Shown: positions 36,401 to 58,150 of the stretch, in pieces
How the letters are laid out: each line of letters starts with the position of its first letter
Numbering within the stretch: the first letter of the stretch is position 1
DNA from: Dyella nitratireducens
GTDB taxonomy: Bacteria > Pseudomonadota > Gammaproteobacteria > Xanthomonadales > Rhodanobacteraceae
NCBI RefSeq assembly: GCF_014642835.1
Contig: NZ_BMJA01000002.1
Location: forward strand, 1,178,867-1,242,866
Direction of reading: 5' to 3'
Length of the DNA stretch: 64,000 nt
Translations under genes and position numbers: made by a program
The notes under the pieces: generated by a model
The model's database searches: none
Seen by the model: only the letters and a program-made list of their open reading frames with translations
Told to the model about the DNA's origin: nothing

Positions 36401-38264
36401 CAACAGCTCGGTCAACGCGATTTACGCAAGCGTGATCAGTGGCAACGGCGTGTTGATAAAGACGGGCAACGGCACGCTGACGCTGATCGGAAGCAACAGT
36501 TACACCGGTGGCACCACGATCGCTGCTGGTACCTTGCAGGTTGGCAGCGGCGATACCAGTGGTGCCATCACCGGCAATGTTTTGGACAACGGCGCGCTGG
36601 TTTTTGACCGCTCGGATAACCTGAGTTTTGCCGGCAGCATTTCCGGCAGCGGTAGCCTGACCAAACTCGGTGCGGGCACGTTGATATTGGACAGTGCCAA
36701 TACATACTCCGGCATGACGACGGTTGCTGCGGGTACCTTGGAGGTTGGTGATAGCGCGCACGCTACCGCGACCTTGGCCGGCGATGTCACCGTCGATCAA
36801 GCGGCGACCTTGCGCGGTCACGGCACGATCGATGGCGATGTCGTGAACAGTGGTGTGGTGTGGCCGGGTGGTTCGGTCGGGGTACTGACCATCCAGGGTA
36901 ATTACACTCAGCAGGCCAATGGCAGCTTGCAGATTGACGTAACGCCCACCAAGGCATCGGAGTTGCTGGTCAATGGCAATGCAAGCCTGGCTGGCACCTT
37001 GAATCTGATCTATGCCCCCGGCACGTACACGCCTTCCACTTTTACCCTGGTACAGGCGAAGGCGGTAAGCGGCAGCTTCACGACCGTCAACGCATCGGGT
37101 TCGATACCGACGGCCCTGAATCCAAAAGTGCAAGACACTGCAACACAGGTTGATCTGGTATTGAGCACGGCCACGACGTCCCCCAGTCCAACCCCGACTC
37201 CAACGCCCACTCCAGCTCCAGCTCCAACACCCACTCCGACCCCGACGCCAACTCCCGCCCCCACTTCAGGCACGCAGACGGTGAAAGTGGCGCCCAGCGA
37301 CGGATCGCTCTATGGCAACCTCATGCGCAGCGTGACCATGGCCGGGGAACAAAATCTTCGCGCCGTGCTGGATAACGGTCTGCCTGATATTCAAAACCAT
37401 TGCAGCGCTGAGAAGTCCACGCGAGGTACGAGTTCATCCGGATGCAGCGGTGGTCTGTGGATGCAATACAGCGGTTCCAGTCTGGCCATCGACGGTACCG
37501 ACGGACTCCACGCATCCGGTTTCAGCCTTCTTGGTGGTGCGGACCATGCATTCGGTGCGATACGCGCTGGTGTGGAAGCGGGCCTTGATCGCATCAATGC
37601 GAACGACCCGCAGCGCGGCAATGGAAGCATTGATGGCGAGCATGCGGGCGTGTATGCATTGGCTGACGTTGGTCCGTTGATACTGTCGGCTACCGCTGAT
37701 GCAGCCCACCAGCACTACCGTGTTGACCGCTATACAGGCATCGGCCATGCCGTTGCCCATCCTGATGGTGAAACTACGTCGGCTGCGCTGCAGGCTGCGT
37801 GGCCCATGCACATTGCACTGTGGCAATGGACGCCGAAAGTCGGCTTGCTTTATCAGCACCAAAGCCTGGATGGCTTTACCGAGACGCAACCCGATAGCAA
37901 TCCGTTAGCGTCGGCATATGCAGTTGATGGTGCGCACAGCACCTACAACACGATGTTGCCGTATGTCGCCATGACGCTCAGCGGCGTGTTCCATTACCGC
38001 GATGTCACCTATGTACCGGCTTTCACGGCGGGATATCGCTATGACACACGTGACGCTACAGCTCCCACGGTAAACGTCGCCGCCGCTGATGGCACCTTGT
38101 TTGCTCTGTCTGGCGCAAGGCTGGGAAGAGGGCAGGCAACGGCGGGTGCACGCATCACCGCTGAAGCAGGTGCATCGTGGAATGTCTATGTCGACTACCA
38201 GGGCTTGTTCGCAAACCATGCACATGATCAGGCGTTGAGCCTGGGGTTCACGAAGTATTTTTGA
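30447..38264 (+). CDS. Giant glycine-rich autotransporter (type Va secretion) with PATR repeats
   Basis: A 2605-residue autotransporter adhesin-like protein. It begins with an extended signal peptide region (MNHTYRLVWNRALRVWQVAS) and a signal peptide cleaved near MAQT (about residue 68). The passenger alternates two glycine-rich blocks of GGxGG/GGTGG type (about 72-385 and 1430-1848) with passenger-associated transport repeats (GNGTLTLAGANTYSGGTTI-like units, about 630-1400 and 1990-2140), which form a beta-helix. A Pro-Thr/Ala linker (2245-2275) leads to the C-terminal beta-barrel (about 2280-2605) ending in an aromatic residue, as expected for BamA recognition. Two Cys flank residue 2316. 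It is intact over 7.8 kb. Function is probably surface adhesion or biofilm; a sulfotransferase gene follows. Confidence 0.95.
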   Translation: MNHTYRLVWNRALRVWQVASELAHAPQGMTVHADVVASTGPRRRLVQACAVALFGMFAAMAPMHAMAQTVVGATGGAGSTGTARNSPPGDWGIGGSGGSAAAENGTSPAAGAAGGDQYNSGSQGTVGSGGGGGGGSNSPYHLSAGGAGGAAYQGWSAGGAGGTGGAGGGGGGGGGGGYAGWYVGTASSPTSITNAYVGGAGGAGGSANSGNSTASGGSGGTGGDGLVGSAFNLTVQSGASATGGNGGSGGSSGGTGATGGVGGVGGQGGAGGDGVGGSGSTLTNQGNITGGNGGMGGAAGGLAGGGIAGNGGTGGTGVSGSAMTVVNTGTITGGNGGSAGNPGAGAAGTPGVGGAGVAASGNATIINAGTISGGFGNNGTSAQAAAVNFTGGGNTLVLEAGSTLNGNAVSAGGDTLALGGNTNSSFNVTNVVSTLSGSLTGTQYIGFGTLQESGSATWTVTGTNNSGAGWLLNSGVLSVSSTNGAELGPSVTFNGGTLNFANSSAATYAGNIVVGSNGGTLNADGGDPTNFANNAVTLTGNVSGAGALVLNADPASVNGTVVLNGAGSTQSVGTLTADNGIVEIGDGSTSVNVAVGNLNVNGSTELSVSHNAVLQVNGAINAASSSTFMLNGELDVTDSTAIGTQLGVNGSGTVSVAQGATLNLQQGFYGEGLLTVSGNGTLLDTGMASNIIGMTINSGATFQIGNGGASGSIAVGPSSFTDNGTLVWNHNDQVAPSFSISGSGGLTQEGTGTLTLSHTNTYTGATVVNGGSIAVTNTGSLGTGALNIASGGEVDLANTSQQIASLNGAGVLQLNGTALAITDNSASVFSGSIGGNGSLNYSGSGSLTLDGNSSAFTGSTTVANGMLVVGSVAGNGATLGGNVTVDSSATLRGYGTIGGSVNVLSGGYLAPGHSIGTLTINGDLNLAQSSALNDDFGAPGANFQTAGTGDSVHVGGNLSLNGATLNVNDVGGMGAGLYNLFTYGGTLSETNGGLTLGTTPAGQILQLQTLTAQKQINLIDTTGLTLTFWNANGQASSTQMGGGSGAWSATAPQWTDASGSVPNSTMQPQPGFAIFGGTSGTVTVDDSAGAVQASGMQFATSGYVLSGGTLTLTGTAPVIRVGDGSSASAGMTATINNVLAGNAGLTKTDAGTLVLGGINTYSGGTAINGGTLVVSSDANLGNVSGGLSFDGGTLENTVAFNTGRAITLAGNGTLQTNADLLISGVVAGNGGLNKTGTGTLTLAGANTYGGVTTISAGTLQLGNGGSTGLVGGTIVDNAALVFDLSGTNSADTISGTGTLTQAGNGTLVLSAANTYTGGTTISAGTLQLGNGGSTGSVVGTIVDNATLAFDFGGTQSVNNTITGNGTVAQAGAGTTIYSGNARGITWLVQQGTLQLGDGTNAFSQTSTTSGPLVTVVNGAGFINAAHASISGSQGAQGTNGAYGYGGNGGNGGVGGAGGVAVSLGSNSSSTNNGQLLGGAGGNGGYGGGSNSGYGGNGGTGGAGGMAITVGSNSTFTNTGSVAGGVGGVGGYSASGSTITQGGLGGNGGAGGAGVAAYAGAAVSNSGTISGGTGGAGYLAAGINHVAGAGVGGNGGAGVSGAGFALINSGAVFGGDGGAGAANPLVGEGNGAVGGDGGVGGVAVQAGDGTQITNNHGATMTGGSGGSGGTGAFGPDAGGGNGGIGGAGVAGSNFSLSNAGDIVGGTGGLGGSGGVSFITAGAAGGDGGMGGAGVDGTGFTLENTGSITGGNGQSGGGGGANHSSTTDSTGGNGGSGGVAGAGVNLGQGSTLVNSGSIAGGDGGAGAPGGGYSGGAPVQNGVSGSNGAGGVGVVGLGNDRVVTSGNISGGLAGDGSTLADAVTFSGGGNTLVLENGYSFTGNVISTSGSTGSGDTFALGGNANGSFDLSSLVSTLSGSLSGTQFVGFAQFLKEDGGTWTLSGSGTQNWTISGGTLQGDATAIQGNVSFAPAEGNVASVIFDQGSGNTNSSVNAIYASVISGNGVLIKTGNGTLTLIGSNSYTGGTTIAAGTLQVGSGDTSGAITGNVLDNGALVFDRSDNLSFAGSISGSGSLTKLGAGTLILDSANTYSGMTTVAAGTLEVGDSAHATATLAGDVTVDQAATLRGHGTIDGDVVNSGVVWPGGSVGVLTIQGNYTQQANGSLQIDVTPTKASELLVNGNASLAGTLNLIYAPGTYTPSTFTLVQAKAVSGSFTTVNASGSIPTALNPKVQDTATQVDLVLSTATTSPSPTPTPTPTPAPAPTPTPTPTPTPAPTSGTQTVKVAPSDGSLYGNLMRSVTMAGEQNLRAVLDNGLPDIQNHCSAEKSTRGTSSSGCSGGLWMQYSGSSLAIDGTDGLHASGFSLLGGADHAFGAIRAGVEAGLDRINANDPQRGNGSIDGEHAGVYALADVGPLILSATADAAHQHYRVDRYTGIGHAVAHPDGETTSAALQAAWPMHIALWQWTPKVGLLYQHQSLDGFTETQPDSNPLASAYAVDGAHSTYNTMLPYVAMTLSGVFHYRDVTYVPAFTAGYRYDTRDATAPTVNVAAADGTLFALSGARLGRGQATAGARITAEAGASWNVYVDYQGLFANHAHDQALSLGFTKYF
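37180..37268 (+). repeat. Pro-Thr/Ala-Pro coding microrepeat in the autotransporter
   Basis: About 89 bases of CCNACN and CCNGCN hexanucleotide units encode an alternating Pro-Thr and Pro-Ala linker between passenger and barrel. Synonymous third bases vary, so it is not a pure slippage tract, but its length could still change by recombination. A flexible, extended linker of this kind spaces the beta-helix from the outer membrane. Confidence 0.8.
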
Positions 38265-38382
38265 CCTATGGCATGGCCATGGATGGCCTGCCACCTTGTC
38301 TCGTTTGGTCACGGCAGAAGAAAGGCCATCTGCTTCATGCCGGTGTAGCGCCAGTTGAAATCCACAGCAAACCAGGGGCTCC

Positions 38383-39201
38383 ATGTCGCGTGCTATTCAT
38401 TTCATTTCCGGCCTGCCACGATCGGGGTCGACGCTGCTAGCCGCCTTGTTGCGCCAGAACCCACGCTTTCATGCGGGAATGAGCAGCCCGGTGGCCGGCA
38501 TGTTCAATAATCTGCTGGGTGAGATGAGCGGGCGCAATGAATTCTCGGTCTTCATCGACGACGCGCAGCGTGAGCGTGTGCTGCGCGGGCTGTTCGACAA
38601 CTACTACGGGCCGGATATCGATGCGCAAGTCATCTTCGACACCAATCGCATGTGGTGCAGTAAATTACCCGTGCTTCGAACGCTGTTTCCCCATGGCCGA
38701 ATCATCGCTTGCGTGCGCCACGTATCCTGGGTGATGGACAGCTTCGAGCGACTGACTCGGCGCAATGTTTTCCAGCCGTCCTCGATTTTCAGTTACCGGC
38801 CGGGTACAACTGTTTATTCGCGCACCGAAGGGTTGGCGGGCGGCGACGGCCTGGTGGGGCATGCATACAACGCATTGAAAGAAGCCTATTTCGGCGAACA
38901 CGCGGCACAGCATTTGATGTTGGTGCAATACGAAACGCTGACGAACGATCCGGCGCGCGTGTTGGCTGCCATCTATGCGTTTCTTGACGAGCCCGCGTTT
39001 GAGCATGACTTCGAAAACATCAGCTACGACGCCACCGAATTTGACCTGCGTGCAGGCACTCCGGGCCTGCACGCAGTGCGTCCTCGGGTGGAGGCAATCT
39101 GCAACGAAACCATCCTGCCACCCGACGTGTTTCGTCGTTACGAAAATGACGCGTTTTGGCGCGACCCGAATATCAATCTGCGTAGGGTGCAAGTGGTTTA
39201 G
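38383..39201 (+). CDS. Sulfotransferase family protein
   Basis: A 272-residue cytoplasmic protein. The 5'-phosphosulfate loop is GLPRSGSTLLAAL at residues 10-22 after the first strand HFIS, and the 3'-phosphate region is RIIACVRHVSWVMDSFERL. A C-terminal LMLVQYETLTNDPARVLAAIYAFLDEP segment matches PAPS-dependent sulfotransferases, including those of the tyrosylprotein type. It lies 118 bases after the autotransporter in the same direction and may sulfate a surface glycan, a peptide or the autotransporter itself; no acceptor can be named from sequence. It converges with the GH76 gene, 24 bases apart. Confidence 0.82.
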   Translation: MSRAIHFISGLPRSGSTLLAALLRQNPRFHAGMSSPVAGMFNNLLGEMSGRNEFSVFIDDAQRERVLRGLFDNYYGPDIDAQVIFDTNRMWCSKLPVLRTLFPHGRIIACVRHVSWVMDSFERLTRRNVFQPSSIFSYRPGTTVYSRTEGLAGGDGLVGHAYNALKEAYFGEHAAQHLMLVQYETLTNDPARVLAAIYAFLDEPAFEHDFENISYDATEFDLRAGTPGLHAVRPRVEAICNETILPPDVFRRYENDAFWRDPNINLRRVQVV

Positions 39202-43200: not shown

Positions 43201-43279
43201 CGGGCTGACACATCTCAAACGCCTGGCCTCGATAGGGGCTTCGCTTGCGCTCCGCGTGACCGCAGGGGTGGGAGGTTTT

Positions 43280-45082
43280 ATGACCAGTAGTTCATTGAAG
43301 ATCGGAAGTCGTTGGGCTTACGGCGAGCGAGTTGTGGAATTCGACGGACCATTGAACATTCGACAAGTGCAAGTGCGCGATTTAGGGACGGGCGAACTCT
43401 TGCCGGTCGCTATGCACGAATTGAAGCCATTACCAACATCGATTCAAAAGAAACGAATCGAACCAACGATGGTTCCCCAACTGGAATGGGATCGTGCACT
43501 GTCCTTGGCGAGGGCATTCGAGCCGTACGTGGAGGAGAACTGTTTACCTAGGAAAGTGACTAAGGAGATCGCTGCTCAATGTGGATTGAGTGCGCGACAG
43601 GTTCTTCGGTATCGCGCAGCCTACCAACGTGGCGCTACGACTACTACTCTCGTACGCCAGAAAGGTGGTCGCCCCCAGGGATTACGGCTACTTGACTACA
43701 GGGTTGAGCAGATCATTCAACACGTGATCACAAAGCACTATGCACTTCGCGAAAAAGTCTCTAAGGAAGAAGTTTGCGAACGAGTAAGGTTGTTGTGCCG
43801 TCGATTGAACCTTGCGCTCCCCGATCCGAAGACTGTGGTCAAACGGATCCGCGAACAAAACGATTATGCGTTTGCGTGCAAGCAACTTGGAACTAAGGTC
43901 GCCAAACAAAGTTACGAGGCAAGACCAGGCAAGCTCATCGTCGACGCGCCCCTCAAGCTGGTGCAAATTGATCACACTCTCGCGGACATTTTGTTAGTTG
44001 ATGAGAATGATCCTAATCGAGTCATCGGTCGCCCGTGGCTAACGTTAGCGATCGACGTCTCTACCCGCGTCGTGCTGGGGTACTTTCTAAGTTTTAACGC
44101 GCCATCATCCATTTCGGTGGCCATGTGTTTAGCACACTCCATGCAGCCGAAAATGGAAAATTTTCGGGATCCATTGGAATGGATCATGTATGGAAAGCCG
44201 CTTCGCATTCTCGTCGATAACGGTAAAGATTTTCGAAGCCTGGCGCTGATTCGTGGATGTGAGCAGCACGGTATTACGCTGGATTGGCGGCCTGTGCGTC
44301 GACCGCATTATGGCGCGCACATCGAACGCCTAATGGGCACCTTCATGCAAATGGTACACACGCTGCCAGGCACGACATTCAGTAACCCCCAACAGAGAGG
44401 GGACTATCCGAGTGAGAAGCGTGCATGCCTTACCTTGCGAGAGTTCCGGGCATGGTTAGTGGAGAAGATCTGCCGAAGCTATCACGTGCGCAGACATCGC
44501 GCCCTAGGAAAACCACCGCTGTTGGCCTGGGAACATGCCTTTCGATGTGAAGATGGATCCTTCGATCCACCGCCAACGCCAATGAATAGAGAAGCACTTT
44601 GGCGCGATTTCTTTCCCTTCGAGCGTCGCCGCCTGCAACGCACTGGGGTGCAATTTAAAGGGACTCGTTATTGGCACGAGTCCTTCGTATCACTGATTCA
44701 CCCGGAGCGTTATGTGATGCTTCACTATGATCCTGATGATTTGTCTCGCATATGGGTTCGTGATGATGACGACGCACTGATCGAGGCTAAGGCTATTGCG
44801 GGGCGAGCGAAAGGGGAGGCAACGCGGTATACGCTGAGCAGTGACGAACAAGCGCGTCTCGACCGAATTCAGTTGGAAGGATACGAACGAGCCGACGCCA
44901 TTCAGCAAACAGCTGAAACACGCCGTCGTCAACGTCGTCGAAATGAAGCAATCGTTGCACCGCCGATCTCCCGGGGTAAGCGTGGCGGGCGGCGGAACGC
45001 TACGCGCCACACACAAACCGCTAGCGATACATCATTCATACCTTTGGATCGCCAGTCGATTACGGTGGAGGTGCTTTCGTGA
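43280..45082 (+). CDS. tniA: TniA/TnsB-type DDE transposase
   Basis: A 600-residue transposase. N-terminal DNA-binding HTH segments (TKEIAAQCGLSARQVLRYRAAY) precede a Mu/rve integrase core. The catalytic triad is visible: Asp231 in VQIDHT, Asp313 in LVDNGKDF and Glu349 in HIERLMGTF, with the exact 35-residue spacing between the second Asp and Glu. A beta-barrel Mu_C domain (RLQRTGVQFKGTRYWHESFV, RIWVRDDDD) and a basic C-terminal tail that would contact TniB follow. ATG at 43280 is chosen because GGGAGG lies five bases upstream. It cuts and joins element ends. The stop overlaps the tniB start (GTGA). Confidence 0.93.
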   Translation: MTSSSLKIGSRWAYGERVVEFDGPLNIRQVQVRDLGTGELLPVAMHELKPLPTSIQKKRIEPTMVPQLEWDRALSLARAFEPYVEENCLPRKVTKEIAAQCGLSARQVLRYRAAYQRGATTTTLVRQKGGRPQGLRLLDYRVEQIIQHVITKHYALREKVSKEEVCERVRLLCRRLNLALPDPKTVVKRIREQNDYAFACKQLGTKVAKQSYEARPGKLIVDAPLKLVQIDHTLADILLVDENDPNRVIGRPWLTLAIDVSTRVVLGYFLSFNAPSSISVAMCLAHSMQPKMENFRDPLEWIMYGKPLRILVDNGKDFRSLALIRGCEQHGITLDWRPVRRPHYGAHIERLMGTFMQMVHTLPGTTFSNPQQRGDYPSEKRACLTLREFRAWLVEKICRSYHVRRHRALGKPPLLAWEHAFRCEDGSFDPPPTPMNREALWRDFFPFERRRLQRTGVQFKGTRYWHESFVSLIHPERYVMLHYDPDDLSRIWVRDDDDALIEAKAIAGRAKGEATRYTLSSDEQARLDRIQLEGYERADAIQQTAETRRRQRRRNEAIVAPPISRGKRGGRRNATRHTQTASDTSFIPLDRQSITVEVLS

Positions 45083-45957
45083 ATCCGCTCTATTCCTACC
45101 TTTCCAAGACGGCGCTGGCCCAACTAGATCTTCCCCCACAGGAACGTATGCGTTTGATGTTTGTTGACCGCTTTGTTGCCCATGAACGCGTGGCTTACAT
45201 GATTAAGTACTGCGAGTTCCTAATGCGCAAACCCCCGGGAGTGAGACCCACCGGCTTATTGGTAACCTGTCCCAGTGGTTCAGGTAAAACGACTATGGCT
45301 GAGATCCTAACGCGACGATATCCGCCCATGGGTGCGACCCCGCAATCGGCGGCGACCTTCCCAGTGATCTATCTCAGCATGACTGATGCAAGGGAGGCTA
45401 AGGAAATCTATACGCGCATGCTAAAAGAATGGAAGGTTCCCTACATAAAGGGGCTTACGCTCGAAGAGCGTCGCGACAAAGTCGTGGAGCTGGCAACGGT
45501 AACTAAGCTTCGCCTGATCATCATTGATGAAGTTCAGGATGTCCTTTTGGTTACACCACGGCAGCAAGTCTTGGCACTCCTAGCCATTAAATTCATCATG
45601 AACACAGTCAAAGTTCCTGTCTTAGCTTTAGGGACACAGGATGCTCGTGCGTCTCTCGCGGCTGACCAGCACCTCGATTCGCGCTTCGAAAAACAAGAGC
45701 TTCCTACATGGATAGCGGACGGCTACTTTCGCAATTTCCTTGAGGCATATCTCGAGCAGTTACCTTTGAAAAAGAGGTCGGATCTGACATCTCAAAGCAT
45801 GATGGATTTTATCATCAAGGAGACGGGCGGTCTGATGCGCGAAATTATTAAGCGCCTTCAGCGATCAGCTGCATTAGCGATTCAAATAAATGAAGAACGT
45901 ATCACCAAAGAGATCTTTGTTCGCACCAACTACGTATTTCCAGAGCTGGAGGTATGA
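45079..45957 (+). CDS. tniB: TniB/TnsC-type AAA+ ATPase
   Basis: A 292-residue AAA+ protein. The Walker A is CPSGSGKTT from residue 64, the Walker B IIIDEVQDV with Asp150-Glu151, sensor 1 is PVLALGTQDA, and an arginine-containing SRFEKQEL segment follows. TniB/TnsC uses ATP-dependent filament assembly on DNA to link the target selector TniQ to the transposase TniA. The GTG start overlaps the tniA stop and its own stop overlaps the tniQ start (ATGA), so all three subunits should be made in fixed ratio. Confidence 0.92.
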   Translation: MNPLYSYLSKTALAQLDLPPQERMRLMFVDRFVAHERVAYMIKYCEFLMRKPPGVRPTGLLVTCPSGSGKTTMAEILTRRYPPMGATPQSAATFPVIYLSMTDAREAKEIYTRMLKEWKVPYIKGLTLEERRDKVVELATVTKLRLIIIDEVQDVLLVTPRQQVLALLAIKFIMNTVKVPVLALGTQDARASLAADQHLDSRFEKQELPTWIADGYFRNFLEAYLEQLPLKKRSDLTSQSMMDFIIKETGGLMREIIKRLQRSAALAIQINEERITKEIFVRTNYVFPELEV

Positions 45958-47024
45958 GACCTGTCGACCAACAGCTCTCGGTACAATCATTAAAACCTTC
46001 GGAGGATGCGGGCTATCGATCTGCATCTTGGATTGATGCCTGCCAGACAAGTCGTGACCTCTGTCGGCCATATCGATGGTGGGTGGAGGCTCTTGGTCCC
46101 GACGAAACGTTTCGCTCTCTCATAGAGCGTGCGGATCGCTTTCACGGGGAACCACCTCCGGATACTCCTTATGTGTGGCAAGACTCTTCCTCTTACGGCA
46201 ACTGCGATGCGCCAAACAGCTATGAGCTCCTTCGACTTGCACGCATGCTAGATGTTTCCGCAGTCGAGTTATTCAAACATCGGCTGGAGGACGGTCCACA
46301 TTTGCTTTATCCCACGGAGCGAAGAGCGTATTGCCCGCAATGTATCCGGGAAGATCATGCTGAGGGTCGACCACGAGCGTTTCGACGGGAGTGGGCCCGC
46401 TTTTTCGTACTGGGCTGCTCAAGCCACCGAACAACATTGCACTGGGCTGAGCCGCGCCTATCCTCCCTCAAGGACATGGACATTGAAGTGCGCTTGCAAC
46501 CCGAAGAGCCCTGGCAGCAGGAGCTCCTCCAAGTGATAGACCAATTTGCGCTGACCCTCGAGGCGAGTCTGTGGAACAAGGCGCGATGGCCTACGAACTG
46601 GTACGGAACGCCGGCCTCCGCACGCGCGTACCTCGCACGTCATTTATGCAATTTGATGGGAGTCCCCGCAACGCTGCCTCTCGTCCACCTGTGGACGCAA
46701 AACTTACCCTTTCCTTTTGTGGCGGTACCTAAGCGGCCCATGCCACCACTCTATGGACCGGCATGGGAAAACGCGCGACGAATAGGGCGGCCCGCCTGGC
46801 GACGAGCTGCATTATGGTTGACAGCATGGAGAGTGATTCCAGGACTACCGGCACACTGGAAACCGATAACCCTTCCGACGCATCACCTCGACGCGATCGA
46901 TGAATGGTGGGAGGGTGTTCCAGCAACGCCCCATCGGTTCAAACAGTGGCGCACGTACGATGCATTGCGGCGATCATGTATCCCCATCGTGATAGATCAT
47001 GCAAAACGGGACTCTATGAAATGA
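45954..47024 (+). CDS. tniQ: TniQ/TnsD-like target-selection protein
   Basis: A 356-residue protein. The SASWIDACQTSRDL...SLIERADRF start and NSYELLRLARMLDVSAVELFKHRL part correspond to the TniQ domain with its HTH. A zinc-finger cluster follows: YCPQCIREDH and LGCSSHRTTL. TniQ-family proteins direct TniB/TniA to target DNA. The C-terminal third (WWEGVPATPHRFKQW...) is shorter than in TnsD. That length and the absence of tnsA argue for a Tn5053/Tn402-like route rather than Tn7-like site-specific insertion at an attTn7 site. The start overlaps the tniB stop by four bases. Confidence 0.85.
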   Translation: MRPVDQQLSVQSLKPSEDAGYRSASWIDACQTSRDLCRPYRWWVEALGPDETFRSLIERADRFHGEPPPDTPYVWQDSSSYGNCDAPNSYELLRLARMLDVSAVELFKHRLEDGPHLLYPTERRAYCPQCIREDHAEGRPRAFRREWARFFVLGCSSHRTTLHWAEPRLSSLKDMDIEVRLQPEEPWQQELLQVIDQFALTLEASLWNKARWPTNWYGTPASARAYLARHLCNLMGVPATLPLVHLWTQNLPFPFVAVPKRPMPPLYGPAWENARRIGRPAWRRAALWLTAWRVIPGLPAHWKPITLPTHHLDAIDEWWEGVPATPHRFKQWRTYDALRRSCIPIVIDHAKRDSMK

Positions 47025-50715: not shown

Positions 50716-51639
50716 ATGTCCAGAAATCAAGCCATAAGCCTATTCCTCGCAATGGCAATGTCTGGTTACGCGCCACTGACCTTAGCCCAGACGCAGCCCA
50801 TCGCTGGCGCGAAGACAGTAAAAGTTATCAAGGACAACCAAGGTAGAGTAAGCGCACTTTGCAAGTACAACTCAGCGACCAGCGAGAGTCTTAAGTACGA
50901 CTGCGGCACCTCTCAAAAAGTACCAGTTGGCGTGGTGCAATGGACCTACTCCTATTGCGACGCCGAGGCTTCACAAAGCGGATCTTGTTCAAGCCCGGGG
51001 TTGTTGTTGAGTAAGCAGAGATATGACTCAACGTCCGCAATGCCAACCAGATATATCTACTACACCAGCAGTGATACGTCGGGTTGCAACGTACCCAGTG
51101 GCTCTTGCCACATGGAGGGACAGTTGTGGAAGGTGGAGAGTGGGAAAAAAGCAGTGATCTACACGCGCTATGACCTCACGTCAGCCACAGGAAATAAGTC
51201 GAACGTCACTCAGCTCAGAAATAAAAAGGGCGTGCTGTATGACCTGTCATACAACTCCCATGGCAACATAGAAACATGGACGATGCGCACAAAAAAAGAC
51301 GGTTCGCCCAGCGCAAACGACGTAACAACGACGTTTAAATATAACAATGCAAACAAGGTTTCGAGTATCACCAACAATGAAGGTCTTGAAATCGATCTCT
51401 TCTACGACGGCTCAAACAAACTAACTTCCATTGATGGACTTCCTGGAAATCAAGCGTCGTCGCAAGCGTTGTTGGCATCGCATGGACTGAAGTCACATGA
51501 CAAGTTTTCTGCCGCAGTAGAGCTAGAGCGATACAGGCTCATCAACCTTTCCCGCATGATGGCGAATTCCTATAAGTACACCGATGCGGTGGCGGGTTTA
51601 GAAAAGCTTGAGCTACAGCTATCGAAGAACTTCGAGTGA
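50716..51639 (+). CDS. Secreted protein with RHS/YD-like repeats
   Basis: A 307-residue protein from an ATG preceded by AGGAG; the signal peptide is MSRNQAISLFLAMAMSGYAPLTLA. The central part contains YD/RHS-like units: DNQGRVSALCKYNS, YNSHGNIETWTM, YNNANKVSSITNNEG and FYDGSNKLTSIDGLPG, about 20 residues each. It lacks the full RHS core and a toxin tip, so it is not a typical Rhs effector; the C-terminal 60 residues are helical. Six to seven Cys lie in its first half. Its function is unknown. It may be a carbohydrate-binding or shell-like surface protein. Confidence 0.6.
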   Translation: MSRNQAISLFLAMAMSGYAPLTLAQTQPIAGAKTVKVIKDNQGRVSALCKYNSATSESLKYDCGTSQKVPVGVVQWTYSYCDAEASQSGSCSSPGLLLSKQRYDSTSAMPTRYIYYTSSDTSGCNVPSGSCHMEGQLWKVESGKKAVIYTRYDLTSATGNKSNVTQLRNKKGVLYDLSYNSHGNIETWTMRTKKDGSPSANDVTTTFKYNNANKVSSITNNEGLEIDLFYDGSNKLTSIDGLPGNQASSQALLASHGLKSHDKFSAAVELERYRLINLSRMMANSYKYTDAVAGLEKLELQLSKNFE

Positions 51640-51708
51640 CGCTTCGTGCGGACCAATCTAACTCGCACGCGATTCATGCGAAACCCACTGATCTAACGAG
51701 GTCTAACC

Positions 51709-52056
51709 ATGGAAACCACACCCCCGTTAACGCGGCTCATCGTGACAACGCAGAAAGACAGGGAACCGCGATCGGCAAGATCGCCAGCAACGTCAGCAGA
51801 CCGAACTGAAAGTCTTTACTCTTTGGTCAATTTGGGAGGTATGCCTGCGCTTCAGCTGTCTCCCGCGGAGGCTATTCGACTCTCGCTTGAGAGCCACTAT
51901 GCTAGCGAACGTGCAATGGACGACCCTGTAAAAGCAGCCGGGCAAGAGATCGATTCTCCATGCAGCAAACTGGAGGATACCGACAACCACGATTCTGCCC
52001 ACAACGACCTCGACAATGATCCTGAATGCGCTAGGGACGGCAGTTGTAATGCATAG
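51709..52056 (+). CDS. Candidate precursor peptide: Asp/Asn/His-rich tail with three cysteines
   Basis: A 115-residue protein without a signal peptide. Residues 1-35 are Thr/Arg/Ser-rich; residues 36-70 (SLYSLVNLGGMPALQLS, PAEAIRLSLESHYASERAM) look like an amphipathic leader helix; residues 82-115 hold eight Asp, four Asn, two His and Cys85, Cys107 and Cys113 (the tail DPECARDGSCNA). Tyr37 and Tyr64 sit beside acidic residues. GAGG lies ten bases before the ATG. The modular leader-like and polar tail design, plus the downstream JmjC oxygenase, sulfotransferase and ABC exporter, suggest a ribosomally made, modified peptide. This is an inference; no known precursor family was recognised, and an ordinary acidic protein is possible. 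Confidence 0.55.
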   Translation: METTPPLTRLIVTTQKDREPRSARSPATSADRTESLYSLVNLGGMPALQLSPAEAIRLSLESHYASERAMDDPVKAAGQEIDSPCSKLEDTDNHDSAHNDLDNDPECARDGSCNA

Positions 52057-52146
52057 CCGCACCTACTCGTCGTTGTTTTGATCCCTTGGTGCGTATTTCA
52101 AATCAAGTGGGTTAGTTACCGTCGACTACCGCTGCGCTAACTCAAA

Positions 52147-52208
52147 GAGGTGATTACCTCGACAAGATGATCTAGAGCGCGCGAAACAGGCTATAGGCTT
52201 GTTTCGCG
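52147..52208 (+). promoter_or_regulatory. Tandem hairpins between the candidate peptide and the JmjC gene
   Basis: GAGGT-GATT-ACCTC (52147-52160) is a small stem, and CGCGAAACA (52180-52188) pairs perfectly with TGTTTCGCG (52200-52208). There is no T-run after the second. Placed in the 249-base gap after a putative precursor gene, a leaky terminator or processing site that lets the peptide message exceed the enzyme message is a reasonable reading. The rest of the gap has no gene. Confidence 0.5.
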
Positions 52209-52305
52209 ATGCTCCTATACAGCTACTAGCCAAAATAAAACTTACGTGAAACTACAAGCGGGTAAGCGATCCGTTGAAGGATCAAATGCCAAGGAGCTAT
52301 AGCAC

Positions 52306-53538
52306 ATGAATCTGGAATCTCTATTATTTCCTATTGGCCTCGAGGAATTTAATAGAACGTATTGGTCGAAACAGTTCTTGCGTATCGCACGTGACAACAC
52401 GAAATATTACAACGACATGTTTTCCGAAGTGGACATGGAAAACACGCTTTACATCGCAAGTCGGTTTCCGGGTGCTGTGCAAGAAATCGCTGAGGACACT
52501 GTTATCCGGACGATCCATACACCGGAAGATGCCGTCAATACATTCAACGCGAAAAGATCACTGCGAATCAATGCCATTCAGAGATTTTCTATCACTTTGG
52601 AGAAGCTAACCAGAAACCTAGCCAAGGTGATTAGTTCTCCAATAAATATCAATCTCTACATGTCGCCATTCTCTGGGCAAAAGGCCCTTCCGCGACACTA
52701 CGACTTGCACGACGTCATCGTTCTACAGATATCTGGCAGGAAGAAATGGAAAATCTTTGAGCCACGTGTGGAGCTTCCTCTAGAGACACTCCCACGACTG
52801 CAGTACGAAACAAATGATGATGTGCGGCGATTTCGCGTGCAGGAACTTGGAGGAGGCAGGGACTGCGTGGAAATGGCGAGCGAGTTCGTCGTCGAACCTG
52901 GCGATCTCCTTTATTTGCCACGCGGCTTTTACCATGAAGCGCTGACTGACAATGACGCGGGTGCTTCTTGCCATTTAACCATCGGAGTAAAACCAACCAC
53001 ATACCTGGATCTATTTGCTCTCGCGCTAGCTGATGCCGCTTACGCGGATCCTCGCCTAAGAGGGCATCTGCCGCTCGGATTAGCGAAAAGCGCACCCTTG
53101 CAGTCTGAAGCGATACGCGCATTCAATGAAATTTCCAGAGACTTGCCTACGCACTTCAACTCAAACAAAGCACTGAGTAAATATATCGGCCTTCTACATC
53201 GAGCCCACAAAGGTTCTCTGCAAAATCAGCTGTTCTCCCGGCAAGCTACGGCCACAGACATCAACGCACTCACGATTGATTCCAGGCTGGGTGTTCGTGA
53301 CGGCACACTACTTGGTCTTGACTATAGCTCTTCTCCAGTCCACCTATGCTTTGGAGAGAATAGGTTCGCTATCGAAGACGACTACATCGAGGCCTGTCAA
53401 TTTCTCTGTGATAACAGTGATTTCAGTTCTTCCATGCTACCCGGACCACTGACTGCGCAACAGAAGCTCACTCTCCTGCGTCAGCTCATGGTCGAAAACA
53501 TCGTCTTCATGAGGGAGCAATCTCATGCCGCAGCATGA
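52306..53538 (+). CDS. JmjC/cupin_4 (YcfD-like) oxygenase
   Basis: A 410-residue protein whose start follows AAGGAG. The N-terminal half is a JmjC barrel: SPFSGQKALPRHYDLHDVIVLQI gives the metal-binding His131-x-Asp133, GRKKWKIF is the usual following strand, and LPRGFYHEAL supplies the distal His210. The C-terminal half is helical, with a winged-helix-like end as in the ribosomal oxygenases YcfD and MINA/NO66. Those enzymes hydroxylate Arg or His in ribosomal proteins with Fe(II) and 2-oxoglutarate. Here the neighbours point to a peptide substrate instead, most simply the Asp/Asn/His-rich tail encoded upstream. It overlaps the sulfotransferase gene by 14 bases. Confidence 0.85.
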   Translation: MNLESLLFPIGLEEFNRTYWSKQFLRIARDNTKYYNDMFSEVDMENTLYIASRFPGAVQEIAEDTVIRTIHTPEDAVNTFNAKRSLRINAIQRFSITLEKLTRNLAKVISSPININLYMSPFSGQKALPRHYDLHDVIVLQISGRKKWKIFEPRVELPLETLPRLQYETNDDVRRFRVQELGGGRDCVEMASEFVVEPGDLLYLPRGFYHEALTDNDAGASCHLTIGVKPTTYLDLFALALADAAYADPRLRGHLPLGLAKSAPLQSEAIRAFNEISRDLPTHFNSNKALSKYIGLLHRAHKGSLQNQLFSRQATATDINALTIDSRLGVRDGTLLGLDYSSSPVHLCFGENRFAIEDDYIEACQFLCDNSDFSSSMLPGPLTAQQKLTLLRQLMVENIVFMREQSHAAA

Positions 53539-54520
53539 ACGAAGGGACGTCCCCAGTCAGCTACACGGGCGCATACCTTCTCGCTTTCTGTTTGACAAGT
53601 TTATTGTTCATTGGACAAGGCTCGACGAAAAAGGTTTGGCGGAACCTTTTTTTCATCAGACCATAGAGCGCTTGCGCAGAACCGGTCAACACGATGTGAT
53701 CGCAACAAGCATAAGTGTCCTGCTGCGCATCAAGGAGGAAATACGACCTAACGGCTTTATCTTTCACATTTCTCGCTGCGGTTCGACTCTCTTAGCCAAC
53801 GCAATGCGATGCTTCGCGGGGTCAACAGTCGTATCCGAATCAAAGCTCATTTCCAAGGCGCTATTGTTGCAGCATGACTTGATTCGCTTCACTGGCGAGT
53901 CTGTGGCCAGAGAAGATTTGCTACGAGGCTTGGTTCGCTCCTACGGTAGACGGCAAACGGAGCAGGACACAAGTTTGATCTTTAAGCTGTCCAGTTGGAA
54001 CATTACACATATCGATGTCTTTCGACATCTATGGCCCGATGTACCCATTGCCATAGTGATAAGAGACCCTTTAGAGGTCGCTGTATCGCTAATGAAGGGG
54101 CCGCCAGGGTGGCTTGCCGAGAGTAGATTTGACGAATTGGTAAGGTCCGACATCAGAAGCCACGTCGAACTCCAACATTCACAGACTATGGAGTCTCGGT
54201 GCGCCCGTATTCTTGGTGAATATCTGAACGCCGCGCTGCTTGTAGCCCATGATCCTCTGTGCTGCTTGGTCGACTATAAAGATATTTCACTCAATAAAGC
54301 ATTGGAGATTGCGAAGTTCTTTAATATCGCTACGCGAAATGATGTGGATATGAGCGCATTGGAAGCTACGTTATCGAAATACTCAAAGGACCCCAATGCC
54401 GCTCGCCTTTACTCAGATGACACCCTTCTTAAGCAGGGAAGTGCGTCCAATCAATTGCGTGAAGAGATAAATGTCAGGGCGCGCCCCTTCTATGAAAGGC
54501 TTTTGGGTCAATTGCATTGA
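53525..54520 (+). CDS. Sulfotransferase-like protein overlapping the JmjC gene
   Basis: A 331-residue cytoplasmic protein. The 5'-phosphosulfate loop is ISRCGSTLLANAM from residue 82, preceded by the strand GFIFH, and IAIVIRDPLEVAVSLM is the 3'-phosphate-binding strand-helix with the conserved Arg and Asp-Pro. The loop carries CG where other family members have SG. The first 80 residues (FIVHWTRLDEKGLAEPFFHQTIERL) form an extra N-terminal domain that I do not recognise and that may bind the acceptor. ATG at 53525 lies inside the JmjC gene, so the two enzymes are translationally linked. It could transfer sulfate to Tyr or to a hydroxyl made by the JmjC enzyme. Confidence 0.75.
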   Translation: MPQHERRDVPSQLHGRIPSRFLFDKFIVHWTRLDEKGLAEPFFHQTIERLRRTGQHDVIATSISVLLRIKEEIRPNGFIFHISRCGSTLLANAMRCFAGSTVVSESKLISKALLLQHDLIRFTGESVAREDLLRGLVRSYGRRQTEQDTSLIFKLSSWNITHIDVFRHLWPDVPIAIVIRDPLEVAVSLMKGPPGWLAESRFDELVRSDIRSHVELQHSQTMESRCARILGEYLNAALLVAHDPLCCLVDYKDISLNKALEIAKFFNIATRNDVDMSALEATLSKYSKDPNAARLYSDDTLLKQGSASNQLREEINVRARPFYERLLGQLH

Positions 54521-54747
54521 CTTGACGATGCATAACGATTAGCAGCCTGATCTGAAGGTTGGAAGATCCCGCGGTAGGACGCTCAACCTGCGTATTGATC
54601 GGTGACCAGTTTGTTCGGAGTGGCATTGCGTGCGCACACCCTTGGTTTTAATCCAGCGACAACAAGCAACATATGCGCACAACGCATCGACGTTAGACCA
54701 TGGAAATCTGCGCAAGCAATCATCAGCACAGCCATAAGTTGAAGGCC

Positions 54748-56634
54748 ATGATCACTGATTTTCAGCCACCGCACGGCTCAAGCGATGCCGACAACCGCAG
54801 AAAAGATCGCTTGCGTAAGCTTGGGGCACTGAGTAACGCACCTCGATTCTTTAAGGACATATGGCGCATCAATCGAAGTATGTTTGTGGCAACCATCTTT
54901 CTTCGAGTGGTTAGATCAGCGCTTCCTGTACTCCTGCTCTTAGTAACAAAAAGAGTAATCGATGTGGTAGCGCATCAGGCGCCACTTGCGAGATCTTTGC
55001 GTTGCTTCCACGGCGTCTCACTTCAGGTCTGCGACGCGTTCATACCCTGGACTCAATTGATTTGGGTTTTCGTCATTGCTGTCACGTCCCTTACCTTTGG
55101 CAAGATATCGTCCTTGTTGGAAAGCATATTAGGCGGTTCGTATCAGCACACAGCAAGTGTTGCTTTGATGCGACACGCCTCGACACTGGATCTATCTAGC
55201 TTTGAGAACCCCAAGGTTCAGGACCAACTTGACAGGGCTCGAAAACAAATCGCCGCACGTACGCCATTGCTTGCGCAATCTCTATCTCAAATTCAGAGCT
55301 CGCTAACGCTATTTGCGTATGCGACCGGAGTCGCGTTGTATGCGCCAAAACTTATCGTAATCATTGTTTTAGGTTGGATTCCCGCGGCGCTGTGCGGCAT
55401 GCACTTCAATACGGTTAGCTATATTGAAGAAAAGAACAAGCTGCCGCAGCGGCGCTACCTGGACTATTTAAGGAACTTGGTGGCCAGTTCAGCTCCCGCG
55501 AAAGAAATCAAAGGCTATCGCCTTGCCGACTACTTTATTGAGCAGTACGCGAGCCTATCGAACGCATTGCACAAGCAAGAGACCCATTTTGTCTTACGAC
55601 GTACACTGGTTACTTCATTGCTAAGTTGCCTAGGTGCGATTGCACAGCTTTGTGCCTACCTATACTTAATTGTTGCAGTCATGGGCGGTGGGCTCTCTAT
55701 CGGGGGATTTGCCTTTCTCGTGATGAGCCTGCTTCGCATAACGAACCTAATGCAATCATCGACAACCGGCCTGACTCAATTGGCAAGCCAAGCCCTGTAT
55801 CTTGATGATCTGTACGATTTTCTAAGCGAGAAATCGCGGATGACAGAGGCGCTATCACCTCGCCCGTTCCCCCAGCGAATGCAAAGCGGTGTTGAGTTTA
55901 GGAACGTATCGTTTGAATACACGGGTGCTCACACTCATGCGATAAATGACATTAGCTTTACCCTAAGACCGGGCGAGGTCATCGCGTTCGTGGGTGAGAA
56001 CGGAGCTGGTAAGTCAACCATCGTGAAACTCTTATCTCGAATGTATGACGCCACATCAGGAAGCATTCTTATCGATGGTGCCGATATTTCAGACTATTCG
56101 ACCGATGATATTCGCAGCAACATCGTTACCACGCATCAGGACTTTATAAGGTATCAACTCAGAGCTATAGATAACGTTCGTTTTGGTGACATTCTCGATG
56201 GGGCGAATGAAGAAAGAATCCACAGATCTATTGATTACGCATCCGCTGCTGCACTAATCGCCAAGCTGAAGGGTGGTCTTCGCCAAATTGTGGGACATCT
56301 TTTCGAAGGAGGTGTCGGCCTATCTGGCGGCGAATGGCAAAAATTAGCCATTGCGCGGTCTTATATGGGTCGGGCGCAGATCTATATCTTCGATGAGCCA
56401 ACGGCTTCGTTGGATGCGAAGTCAGAACAGGCTACCTTTAGTAGAATTAAAGAGCTCGCACGAGGTGCGTCTGCGGTCATAATTTCGCATCGATTCTCAA
56501 CAGTGAGAATGGCTGATCGCATTTACGTAATGGACGGCGGGAAAATCATACAAGCCGGTACGCACGAACAGTTGATGGCTACTCCGGGTTCATATAGCGA
56601 CCTGTTTACCTTACAAGCAGCCGGTTACAGGTAG
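54748..56634 (+). CDS. ABC transporter, fused membrane and ATPase domains (peptide exporter-like)
   Basis: A 628-residue half-transporter. The transmembrane domain spans about residues 45-340 with six helices. The ATPase has the Walker A GENGAGKST at 416-424, Q-loop THQDFIRYQ, signature LSGGEWQK from 525, Walker B IYIFDEP from 545 and the switch His in VIISHRFSTV. There is no C39 leader peptidase domain, so any leader must be removed by another protease. This architecture matches exporters of RiPP and lasso-type clusters as well as lipid exporters. ATG at 54748 is chosen; another at 54700 would add 16 residues. It lies 227 bases after the sulfotransferase in the same direction. Confidence 0.88.
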   Translation: MITDFQPPHGSSDADNRRKDRLRKLGALSNAPRFFKDIWRINRSMFVATIFLRVVRSALPVLLLLVTKRVIDVVAHQAPLARSLRCFHGVSLQVCDAFIPWTQLIWVFVIAVTSLTFGKISSLLESILGGSYQHTASVALMRHASTLDLSSFENPKVQDQLDRARKQIAARTPLLAQSLSQIQSSLTLFAYATGVALYAPKLIVIIVLGWIPAALCGMHFNTVSYIEEKNKLPQRRYLDYLRNLVASSAPAKEIKGYRLADYFIEQYASLSNALHKQETHFVLRRTLVTSLLSCLGAIAQLCAYLYLIVAVMGGGLSIGGFAFLVMSLLRITNLMQSSTTGLTQLASQALYLDDLYDFLSEKSRMTEALSPRPFPQRMQSGVEFRNVSFEYTGAHTHAINDISFTLRPGEVIAFVGENGAGKSTIVKLLSRMYDATSGSILIDGADISDYSTDDIRSNIVTTHQDFIRYQLRAIDNVRFGDILDGANEERIHRSIDYASAAALIAKLKGGLRQIVGHLFEGGVGLSGGEWQKLAIARSYMGRAQIYIFDEPTASLDAKSEQATFSRIKELARGASAVIISHRFSTVRMADRIYVMDGGKIIQAGTHEQLMATPGSYSDLFTLQAAGYR

Positions 56635-56808
56635 CCTTGATGCAAACGTTCCCCCGAAGCTTTTCCATAGGGCAGGCGCGGTTTCCATGGGACACAGTTT
56701 GGTCTAAGTTCGACCCCATAGAATTTTTTGGCCAGTTCCAATATTCGGTACGCGGCCTAACAATTCGTCCATACGGACGTCTCTGACGCACCTAACTCAG
56801 GTGTTGAA

Positions 56809-56898
56809 TGTCCGCAGCCAAAAGCGGGCCTGGAGCAGGGCGATTAGAAGGGGTTATCGAGGATAGGGTGAGTGTCCGCTTTCGACCCGAAGCAGACA
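56809..56898. repeat. Dispersed palindromic repeat, copy 3 (complete unit)
   Basis: Within the 313-base gap 56635-56947 this copy shows the whole composite unit: a diverged palindrome starting TGTCCGCAGCC (56809), the CGATTAG...GTTATCGAGGATAGG centre, and a second palindrome TGTCCGCTTT...GAAGCAGACA at 56873-56898. The rest of the gap has no gene. Confidence 0.75.
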
Positions 56899-56947
56899 TA
56901 AGCTGCAGTTCAATGGTCATGAAACTGACGATGGTGAAAGGACGATC

Positions 56948-58150
56948 ATGCCCTTACAGGTAAGTCAGATCGCAGCCCCACAAGAACCATTCGATCGAAT
57001 AAGTGCCATTGATATTTTGCGTGGCATCGCCTTGTTCGGCGTGCTGATGGTCAATCTCGTCACGGAGTTCCGCGTCGACGTCTTTCAACAATTTCTACCC
57101 ACGACAAGTCCGGCGTCTGAAATGGATCATTACGTCGAAACGGGAGTCGGCGTCTTTCTGGAATTGAAAGCCTTTGCCTTGTTCTCGTTCCTGTTCGGCG
57201 TTGGTTTGGCCATCCAATTTGAACGTCTTGCTAAAACTCAACGGCGGTTAGTCTTGTTGGTTCGGCGACTCGTCGTGCTCTTGGGGTTTGGCCTCATCCA
57301 CTTCTACTTGATTTGGAACGGGGACATTCTGACCGAATATGCGCTGATCGGTTTGATTGCACTCCCCATGCTTTACCTCTCCAACGTGTGGTTAGCGACG
57401 ATTGCGTTGCTCCTCTTGGCCTTTTACATGGGTCTGCCGCATTCCTTGTCGCCTGACTTCTTTTGGCCTTCAACCGAGTGGCTTCAACAGCATGTGGAAG
57501 AGGCAAACCGCGTGTACGCGTCGGGCAGCTATGCAGAGATTCTAAAATTCAGTTGGCAGGAAATTCCTCATATTGTTCCACTCCATCTCGCGATAGCGTC
57601 CCGAACGTTGGCACTTTTCTTGTTGGGAGCTGTGGCGTGGCGAACGGGGTTGCTCCGTCAGCCGAAGCGCCATCAAGCGTTGCTTGTGGGTTTGATGGTG
57701 TTTGGCCTTTTGGTGGGCAGTGCGTTGAACTTGCTTGAAGCGGTAGGGCCTCATTCAACGTGGATCGGCGTGGCGCGCACACTTGATGGCTTGGCGCCAC
57801 TGAGCCCGGTGATCCTGGCCATGGGTTACATGAGTGCAGTGATCGTCCTGGTTTCGTTCACGCCGGCCCGCGGTGTCCTCTCCGTTTTCGGTCCTCTCGG
57901 GCGCATGGCCTTTACCAACTACCTCATGCAGTCGCTAATCTTCTGCGGAATCTTTTATGGCTACGGGCTGGGTTATTTCGGAAAGTTAGGCGCCACCAGT
58001 ACATTGATCCTTGGCGTAGCGGTTTATGCGATACAGATCGTGATCAGCATTCGATGGTTAGAACGTTACCGATTCGGGCCCGTAGAATGGCTATGGCGCA
58101 CCTTGATGTACGGCACTCGCCAGCCCTTCGCGCAATTTAGAACTATTTGA
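56948..58150 (+). CDS. DUF418 family membrane protein (YeiB-like)
   Basis: A 400-residue polytopic protein. RISAIDILRGIALFGVLMVNLV at residues 17-38 is the family's N-terminal signature, KAFALFSFLFGVGLAIQFERL follows, and the C-terminal DUF418 domain (about 230-390) includes GPLGRMAFTNYLMQSLIFCGIFYGYGLG and RFGPVEWLWRTLMYG. The family is distantly related to acyltransferase 3 and heparan acetyltransferase-like proteins; no reaction is proven. It stands between dispersed repeats as a single gene. Codon use looks closer to the GC-rich core genes than to the preceding cluster. Confidence 0.85.
   Translation: MPLQVSQIAAPQEPFDRISAIDILRGIALFGVLMVNLVTEFRVDVFQQFLPTTSPASEMDHYVETGVGVFLELKAFALFSFLFGVGLAIQFERLAKTQRRLVLLVRRLVVLLGFGLIHFYLIWNGDILTEYALIGLIALPMLYLSNVWLATIALLLLAFYMGLPHSLSPDFFWPSTEWLQQHVEEANRVYASGSYAEILKFSWQEIPHIVPLHLAIASRTLALFLLGAVAWRTGLLRQPKRHQALLVGLMVFGLLVGSALNLLEAVGPHSTWIGVARTLDGLAPLSPVILAMGYMSAVIVLVSFTPARGVLSVFGPLGRMAFTNYLMQSLIFCGIFYGYGLGYFGKLGATSTLILGVAVYAIQIVISIRWLERYRFGPVEWLWRTLMYGTRQPFAQFRTI

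Follow-up and report, generated by a model that had tools for sequence, protein, structure and literature searches.

A candidate modified-peptide cluster in Dyella nitratireducens that combines a JmjC oxygenase, a sulfotransferase and an ABC exporter

What is made by four genes, P0001 to P0004, that lie at positions 51709-56634 of a 64,000-nucleotide stretch of Dyella nitratireducens DNA (contig NZ_BMJA01000002.1; the whole stretch is called the window here)? The first-pass annotation took them for a small peptide, an oxygenase, a sulfotransferase and an ATP-binding cassette (ABC) exporter, all encoded on one strand, and proposed that the peptide is hydroxylated, sulfated and exported. All four open reading frames (ORFs) were confirmed, and all are on the forward strand. 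As that annotation had also stated, P0003 starts inside the oxygenase gene: its ATG is at 53525 and P0002 ends at 53538, an overlap of 14 bp. We consider the chances evenly balanced that the genes form a horizontally acquired modified-peptide cluster, in which P0002 hydroxylates, P0003 sulfates and P0004 exports a substrate that is likeliest P0001. What the sequences show is the gene arrangement, the presence of the catalytic residues in both enzymes and the recurrence and fusion of oxygenase-sulfotransferase pairs; the substrate and its modified residues, the order of the reactions and the biological role of the product are what we infer.

In the mechanism proposed, P0002 would hydroxylate an exported polypeptide, probably at C-beta (C3) of one or more residues, and P0003 would then move sulfate from 3'-phosphoadenosine-5'-phosphosulfate (PAPS) onto the same polypeptide. 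The acceptor would most economically be the new hydroxyl, and otherwise Tyr or Ser/Thr. The product would be exported by P0004, and a leader would presumably be removed by an unlinked protease. Sequential action of both enzymes on one substrate is suggested by the gene overlap, by the recurrent pairing described below and by natural fusions.

We had noticed the pairing before we counted it, so the count is that of a known pattern and not a blind test. Twenty-six relatives of P0003 were examined (14 and 8 from two genome searches, and four plasmid loci), and neighbours were counted with tblastn seeds for AspH-like (aspartyl/asparaginyl beta-hydroxylase-like) proteins, JmjC-like proteins, other 2-oxoglutarate (2OG) oxygenases and cupins. 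The seeds were drawn from counted loci, for which we use L numbers (AspH from L057, L058, L061 and L064; JmjC-like from L026; 2OG from L026 and L047; cupin from L046). An oxygenase-type gene lies beside or near the P0003-type sulfotransferase gene in 21 of the 26 relatives. The partner is AspH-like in 17 (L027, L028, L030-L034, L057-L062, L064, L068, L147, L148), JmjC or JmjC-like in three (L026, L046, L092) and another 2OG oxygenase in one (L047); the seeds found no oxygenase partner in five (L029, L048, L063, L067, L149). Fifteen of the 21 pairs, L147 and L148 among them, share a strand and have no more than 111 bp between their matches; the gap in L047 is 332 bp. Pairs are divergent in L060 (383 bp) and L062 (330 bp) and convergent in L064 and L092, and the loosest is L046, with 2.9 kb to a JmjC gene on the opposite strand.

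The two are also fused in three of the 17 AspH loci (L027, L033 and L148), where a single reading frame spans both matches. Pfam sees only the AspH half of the L033 fusion (E 9.6e-14), and the sulfotransferase halves are found by tblastn with P0003 (E about 1e-18 for L033, 2e-19 for L027 and 1e-13 for L148); the AspH protein of L057 scores E 1.8e-14. As a control, 26 JmjC-only loci (300 kb) were searched with the AspH seeds and gave no hit. The coupling of hydroxylation to sulfation as a module is therefore well supported, by the 21 of 26 relatives with an oxygenase neighbour and by the three fusions, and this part of the first-pass model has support from beyond the window. The general rule is an oxygenase with a P0003-type sulfotransferase, and the JmjC version is in the minority. 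No description of a ribosomally synthesized and post-translationally modified peptide (RiPP) with a JmjC enzyme plus a sulfotransferase, or of oxygenase-sulfotransferase pairing, was seen among the papers listed by searches of an open-access library, several of which gave the top-ranked entries.

Some further features of the sulfotransferase loci were observed in passing. Tail-Collar-type phage proteins, as seed hits, lie near the sulfotransferase genes in nine of the 26 loci (L033, L046, L058-L060, L062, L063, L068, L148), seven of which have a GNAT gene, and L046, L060 and L062 also carry Asn-synthase and HPr-kinase-like genes. The Asp/Asn hydroxylase at 4419-5300 of L057 has a weak C-terminal match, below the cut-off, to Nif11, a domain of RiPP-leader type (E 7e-4).

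The oxygenase itself is intact. P0002 matches JmjC_2 in Pfam (E 9.1e-22), has no NCBIfam match at E 1, and has H131, D133, H210 and K146 in invariant columns of alignment A1. The first three we take to be the Fe ligands and K146 to be the likely 2OG lysine, on the strength of what is known of the family. All four residues are found in 50 of the 53 aligned proteins, P0002 counted, and the remaining three, which are YcfD-like, carry Arg in place of K146. The earlier label of a YcfD-type enzyme does not hold, since the best PDB chains are those of NO66 and MINA53 (E 4e-20 to 2e-19), whereas YcfD is matched at E 1e-3. A second JmjC_2 protein of the genome (L040) hits the E. coli L16 arginine hydroxylase, YcfD, with an E value of 2.5e-65 and groups with two other YcfD-like proteins on a branch of its own (support 100/100). 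P0002 is thus not the ribosomal YcfD. P0002 is on a long branch of the tree, where no sister group is supported and the bootstrap is not settled. To judge from its sequence, therefore, P0002 is a JmjC oxygenase nearer to NO66/MINA53 than to YcfD. In the cited parts of the literature, the hydroxylation by NO66 and MINA53 is on C-3 of His (PMC9994133) and that by YcfD on Arg81 of L16 (PMC6006756), so that by analogy a C-beta hydroxyl would be the likeliest product of P0002. An RRE/PqqD-like C-terminus of P0002-type enzymes was considered as a leader binder and set aside at an hhalign probability of 0.9%.

The sulfotransferase is recognised mainly through its subfamily. P0003 has the motifs SRCGSTLL ... 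SE ... RDPLEVAVS, and a profile of 13 members of its subfamily (A3) finds protein-tyrosine sulfotransferase 1 (TPST1) in PDB with an E value of 2.4e-6. Residues R84, G86, S87, T88, E105, R180 and S188 are conserved in the alignment: R84 belongs to the first PAPS motif, E105 falls between the motifs, and R180 and S188 belong to the second. Conservation of R84 and S188 is not strict, in that L026 has His and Ala there. For sulfotransferases, the cited part of PMC6637879 names an Arg, a Ser and a base that is either His or Glu. By these alignments, the P0003 subfamily keeps its PAPS-site and catalytic residues.

P0004 has an ABC_tran domain (E 1.5e-29) and a weak ABC_membrane match (25 of 28 bits), and, as the first-pass annotation had it, Pfam finds no Peptidase_C39 in it. 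Its start is perhaps at 54748 rather than 54700, judged by eye. The best NCBIfam models for P0004 are MsbA or lipid A exporters, with scores far below the cut-offs, and many sulfotransferases act on small molecules. Both facts would fit a pair that works on a small molecule or lipid, with P0004 as the exporter of the product. We hold this to be very improbable: in the 20 window proteins scanned we recognised no biosynthetic gene set, and the nearest PDB relatives of both enzymes act on proteins.

P0001 is the likeliest substrate, and the modifications would then fall in its acidic tail (about residues 82-115). The place of the ORF, its fair ribosome-binding stretch and the densest Asp/Asn stretch in the window speak for it. 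The tail is rich in Asp and Asn and has three Cys and two His; among the 322 window ORFs of at least 60 residues, P0001 has the top count of Asp plus Asn (11) in a 31-residue stretch. The 115-residue ORF and the Cys-containing tail of the first-pass annotation were both found (51709-52056), but the evidence that the ORF is coding is weak. Pfam, NCBIfam (E 1) and PADLOC give no match for P0001. A second hit in its own genome (E 0.09) was rejected, as that ORF overlaps other genes.

P0001 has Tyr only at residues 37 and 64, and Tyr64 is within the acidic stretch LESHYASERAMDD. P0003 could act in the manner of RaxX sulfation on Tyr64, or on Tyr37, with the oxygenase making an independent modification. 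The acidic surroundings of Tyr64 and the resemblance of the P0003 profile to TPST1 speak for this. We nevertheless regard it as improbable, given that the Asp/Asn-rich tail has no Tyr, that there is no C39 exporter of the RaxB kind, and that relatives of P0003 pair with oxygenases.

The features of the locus are collected in the table below.

Table. Genes of the candidate cluster and the transposition genes upstream of it, in window coordinates
Feature	Position	Strand	Basis
P0001, candidate precursor peptide, 115 aa	51709-52056	+	ORF
P0002, JmjC Fe(II)/2OG oxygenase, NO66/MINA53 type, 410 aa	52306-53538	+	Pfam, PDB matches
P0003, PAPS-type sulfotransferase, 331 aa	53525-54520	+	Sulfotransfer_3 below cut-off, profile A3
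P0004, ABC exporter, MsbA/MDR type, 644 aa	54700-56634	+	ABC_tran
TniA-like (Mu-transpos_C), TniB and TniQ transposition genes	43256-47024	+	Pfam

Several results weigh against the reading of these genes as one hydroxylation, sulfation and export cluster acting on P0001. P0001 has no homolog in plasmids (best E 6) or elsewhere in its own genome. Its coding score of 0.02, the best of the six frames, equals the lowest of 15 known training genes (range 0.02-0.28), and nine of 42 other untrained ORFs (at least 80 residues, beyond 40 kb), several of which may be real genes, outscore it. The profile of the JmjC-associated twin-arginine translocation (Tat) repeat proteins described below does not detect P0001, and shuffles that keep the composition of its tail lend no significance to the spaced-Asp motifs there (P about 0.25 and 0.22 for each one and 0.07 for the two combined). 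Within the locus, 249 bp separate P0001 from P0002, promoter- or terminator-like sites at 51500-57000 are not in excess over shuffles, and Pfam finds no protease in the four-gene cluster. The Sulfotransfer_3 match of P0003 (E 2.9e-4, 21.6 bits) is below the curated 27 bits, and the P0003 sequence alone finds no sulfotransferase in PDB. Among the relatives, P0003 and Azospirillum sulfotransferase seeds hit none of the 26 JmjC-only loci, and the JmjC relatives mostly have no P0003-type sulfotransferase, the exceptions being plasmid loci L046 and L092. The closest relative of P0003, in genome G032 of the same family (L026), has an overlapping JmjC-like/sulfotransferase pair and no homolog of P0001 or P0004; its JmjC-like protein does not have the iron-ligand residues in the alignment (H131 and D133 are missing and H210 is replaced by Cys). 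With these points set beside those in favour of P0001, the full model is held at an even standing. The idea that the P0001 tail shares a D-x-D motif with the Tat proteins was dropped after the profile test and the shuffles; DNDP alone gives P 0.014, for a motif picked after the sequences had been viewed.

The L026 protein is below the Pfam cut-off, and two 2OG-FeII_Oxy_3 genes, one of them below the cut-off, precede its gene. The first-pass annotation had asked whether relatives keep the pair and never the small upstream gene, and the answer is divided. The G032 pair has no P0001 homolog, and the Tistrella locus L092 has an unannotated small ORF (5674-5865, picked by eye among several) just upstream of the JmjC gene beside the P0003-type sulfotransferase. 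Because the Tistrella pair also has a small upstream ORF, the peptide of such clusters may be diverging fast. In L111, the JmjC gene is followed by a different sulfotransferase (Sulfotransfer_1).

The G032 pair, which has neither P0001 nor P0004 beside it, and the weak coding score of P0001 would also fit a pair that modifies another polypeptide, such as a surface or secreted protein encoded elsewhere, with P0001 unrelated or not translated. The frequent position of AspH-sulfotransferase relatives near phage Tail-Collar proteins (9/26) points the same way. We consider this unlikely on balance, and a serious contender nonetheless: an ABC exporter gene directly follows the pair, P0001 is the densest Asp/Asn ORF of the window, and several JmjC relatives adjoin a small ORF.

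These neighbours of JmjC relatives are varied. L103 has a Nif11 peptide and a LanM-type synthetase beside the JmjC gene, and L042 has LanM and NHLP export genes. PqqD and Asn-synthase genes are found in L046 and L092, small peptides with C39-ABC exporters in L091, L115 and L035, an NHase-alpha-like leader peptide in L122, and radical SAM genes in L044 and L045. On a Streptomyces clavuligerus plasmid, the JmjC gene is beside a 48-residue Asp/Pro-rich peptide, and an ABC protein that is 29% identical to P0004 over 640 residues is encoded about 2.7 kb further on. Other relatives, such as L106, L108, L112 and L114, have no recognised neighbour of this kind. Proteins with a Tat-type (RRxF) signal and repeats such as TDSDTGAYADAAGNGRG occur in nine of 49 JmjC loci (L098-L102, L104, L105, L126, L134), and the repeat motif has no hit in 464 kb of other loci, some of which overlap. 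The genomes in which such small Tat-signal proteins with DxD...GxGR repeats lie beside JmjC genes carry five family labels (f37, f38, f48, f224 and f263); of five scanned, none is above a Pfam cut-off and one is above an NCBIfam cut-off, for the Tat signal only.

Plasmids carry further JmjC loci. JmjC or cupin genes lie near ABC exporter genes on E. coli, Moraxella and Acinetobacter plasmids (L088, L090 and L091), with one of 25 Escherichia records matched in the plasmid JmjC/cupin search, and the products are possibly modified bacteriocins. Two Streptomyces plasmids (L095 and L096) encode small peptides ending in TPSDGGGTGRSDGND. Downstream come genes for a JmjC protein and an aldo/keto reductase, to which L095 adds an APH-like kinase; these are a candidate RiPP cluster.

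Among known systems, RaxX-RaxSTAB of Xanthomonas is similar in that a candidate small peptide, a TPST-like sulfotransferase and ABC export are encoded together (PMC6637879, in the part cited). P0003 is TPST-like by sequence, through its TPST1 match and conserved residues. Rax export relies on RaxB, a C39 peptidase-ABC transporter that cuts off a double-glycine leader, together with RaxA. In contrast to the Rax system, the present cluster adds a JmjC oxygenase and the relatives of P0003 pair with oxygenases, P0004 does not have the C39 peptidase that RaxB would supply, the 20 window proteins scanned include no HlyD-type protein, and the acidic tail of P0001 has no Tyr. The biphenomycin-family RiPPs also use a JmjC Fe(II)/2OG oxygenase on a ribosomal precursor, with tested ornithine hydroxylation by JmjC or cupin enzymes (BipG/BpmG/PbsQ), according to the cited portions of PMC12257519 and PMC12707348. 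As described there, biphenomycin clusters additionally have an MNIO, a B12 radical SAM enzyme and a step that turns arginine into ornithine; the present cluster shows none of these, and the string 'sulfo' is absent from the main text of PMC12707348. Methanobactin operons with MbnS likewise join a RiPP with a sulfotransferase, assigned to Thr sulfonation, but MbnS is a PF00685 protein of the mbn operon with a genetically encoded Thr as acceptor, and the cited part of that source names no JmjC enzyme (PMC3621798). P0002 shares the JmjC ligands with the ribosomal oxygenases NO66/MINA53 and YcfD, and its JmjC region can be aligned with that of NO66/MINA53, but it is clustered with a sulfotransferase and an exporter, while the YcfD-like enzyme of the genome is encoded elsewhere. 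As the first-pass annotation had it, none of the usual RiPP maturases (LanM, YcaO, radical SAM, lasso B/C) was found; this holds for the 20 window proteins scanned with Pfam, a part of the window's genes.

The cluster was probably acquired horizontally, given its low G+C content (49.3% vs 58.2% for the window), the TniA-like, TniB and TniQ genes upstream within the same low-G+C stretch, and the sparse matches in related genomes. The transposition genes would be a possible route of acquisition. In 15 other genomes of the genus there is no P0003 match at E 1e-10 and no P0002 match at E 1e-5. Searches further afield, with the source genome counted each time, gave P0002 matches in 6 of 197 genomes of the family (E 1e-5), 6 of 299 of the order (E 1e-10) and 7 of 369 of the class (E 1e-14). 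The P0002 profile A1, at E 1e-25, matched 18 of 398 genomes of the phylum. Scans of genome contigs with the single P0002 and P0003 proteins gave no confirmed relative, the phage collection had no P0002 match at E 1e-5, and plasmids had no DNA match to 51650-54700. PADLOC defence models at E 1e-5 gave three hits, all to P0004, and matched no other cluster gene. Shine-Dalgarno-like stretches were noted by eye 5' of P0001 (GAGG), P0002 (AAGGAG) and P0003 (GAGGGAG).

More broadly, coupled beta-hydroxylation and O-sulfation might be a general bacterial protein modification not described before, in which JmjC or AspH enzymes hydroxylate and a TPST-like subfamily, sometimes fused to them, sulfates; this we put forward only tentatively. 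If it is true, exported peptides or surface proteins would be targets of the coupled modification, and the present cluster would be the version for an ABC-exported peptide. Sulfation of a hydroxyl made by an oxygenase would widen protein sulfation past the Tyr, Ser and Thr that genes encode. With 17 pairings of AspH type, three of JmjC type and one other, and with the three fusions, the coupling is directly testable with few proteins, and the P0003 subfamily could be used as a genome-mining handle for other modified peptides and surface proteins.

At 30447-39201 the window has a second sulfotransferase gene (Sulfotransfer_3, E 3.3e-16), which directly follows a gene for a 2605-residue autotransporter with ESPR and PATR repeats. 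The DNA at 38383-40455 matches 15 of 16 genus genomes, its own counted; many of the matches are in the sulfotransferase part, and some genomes have several.

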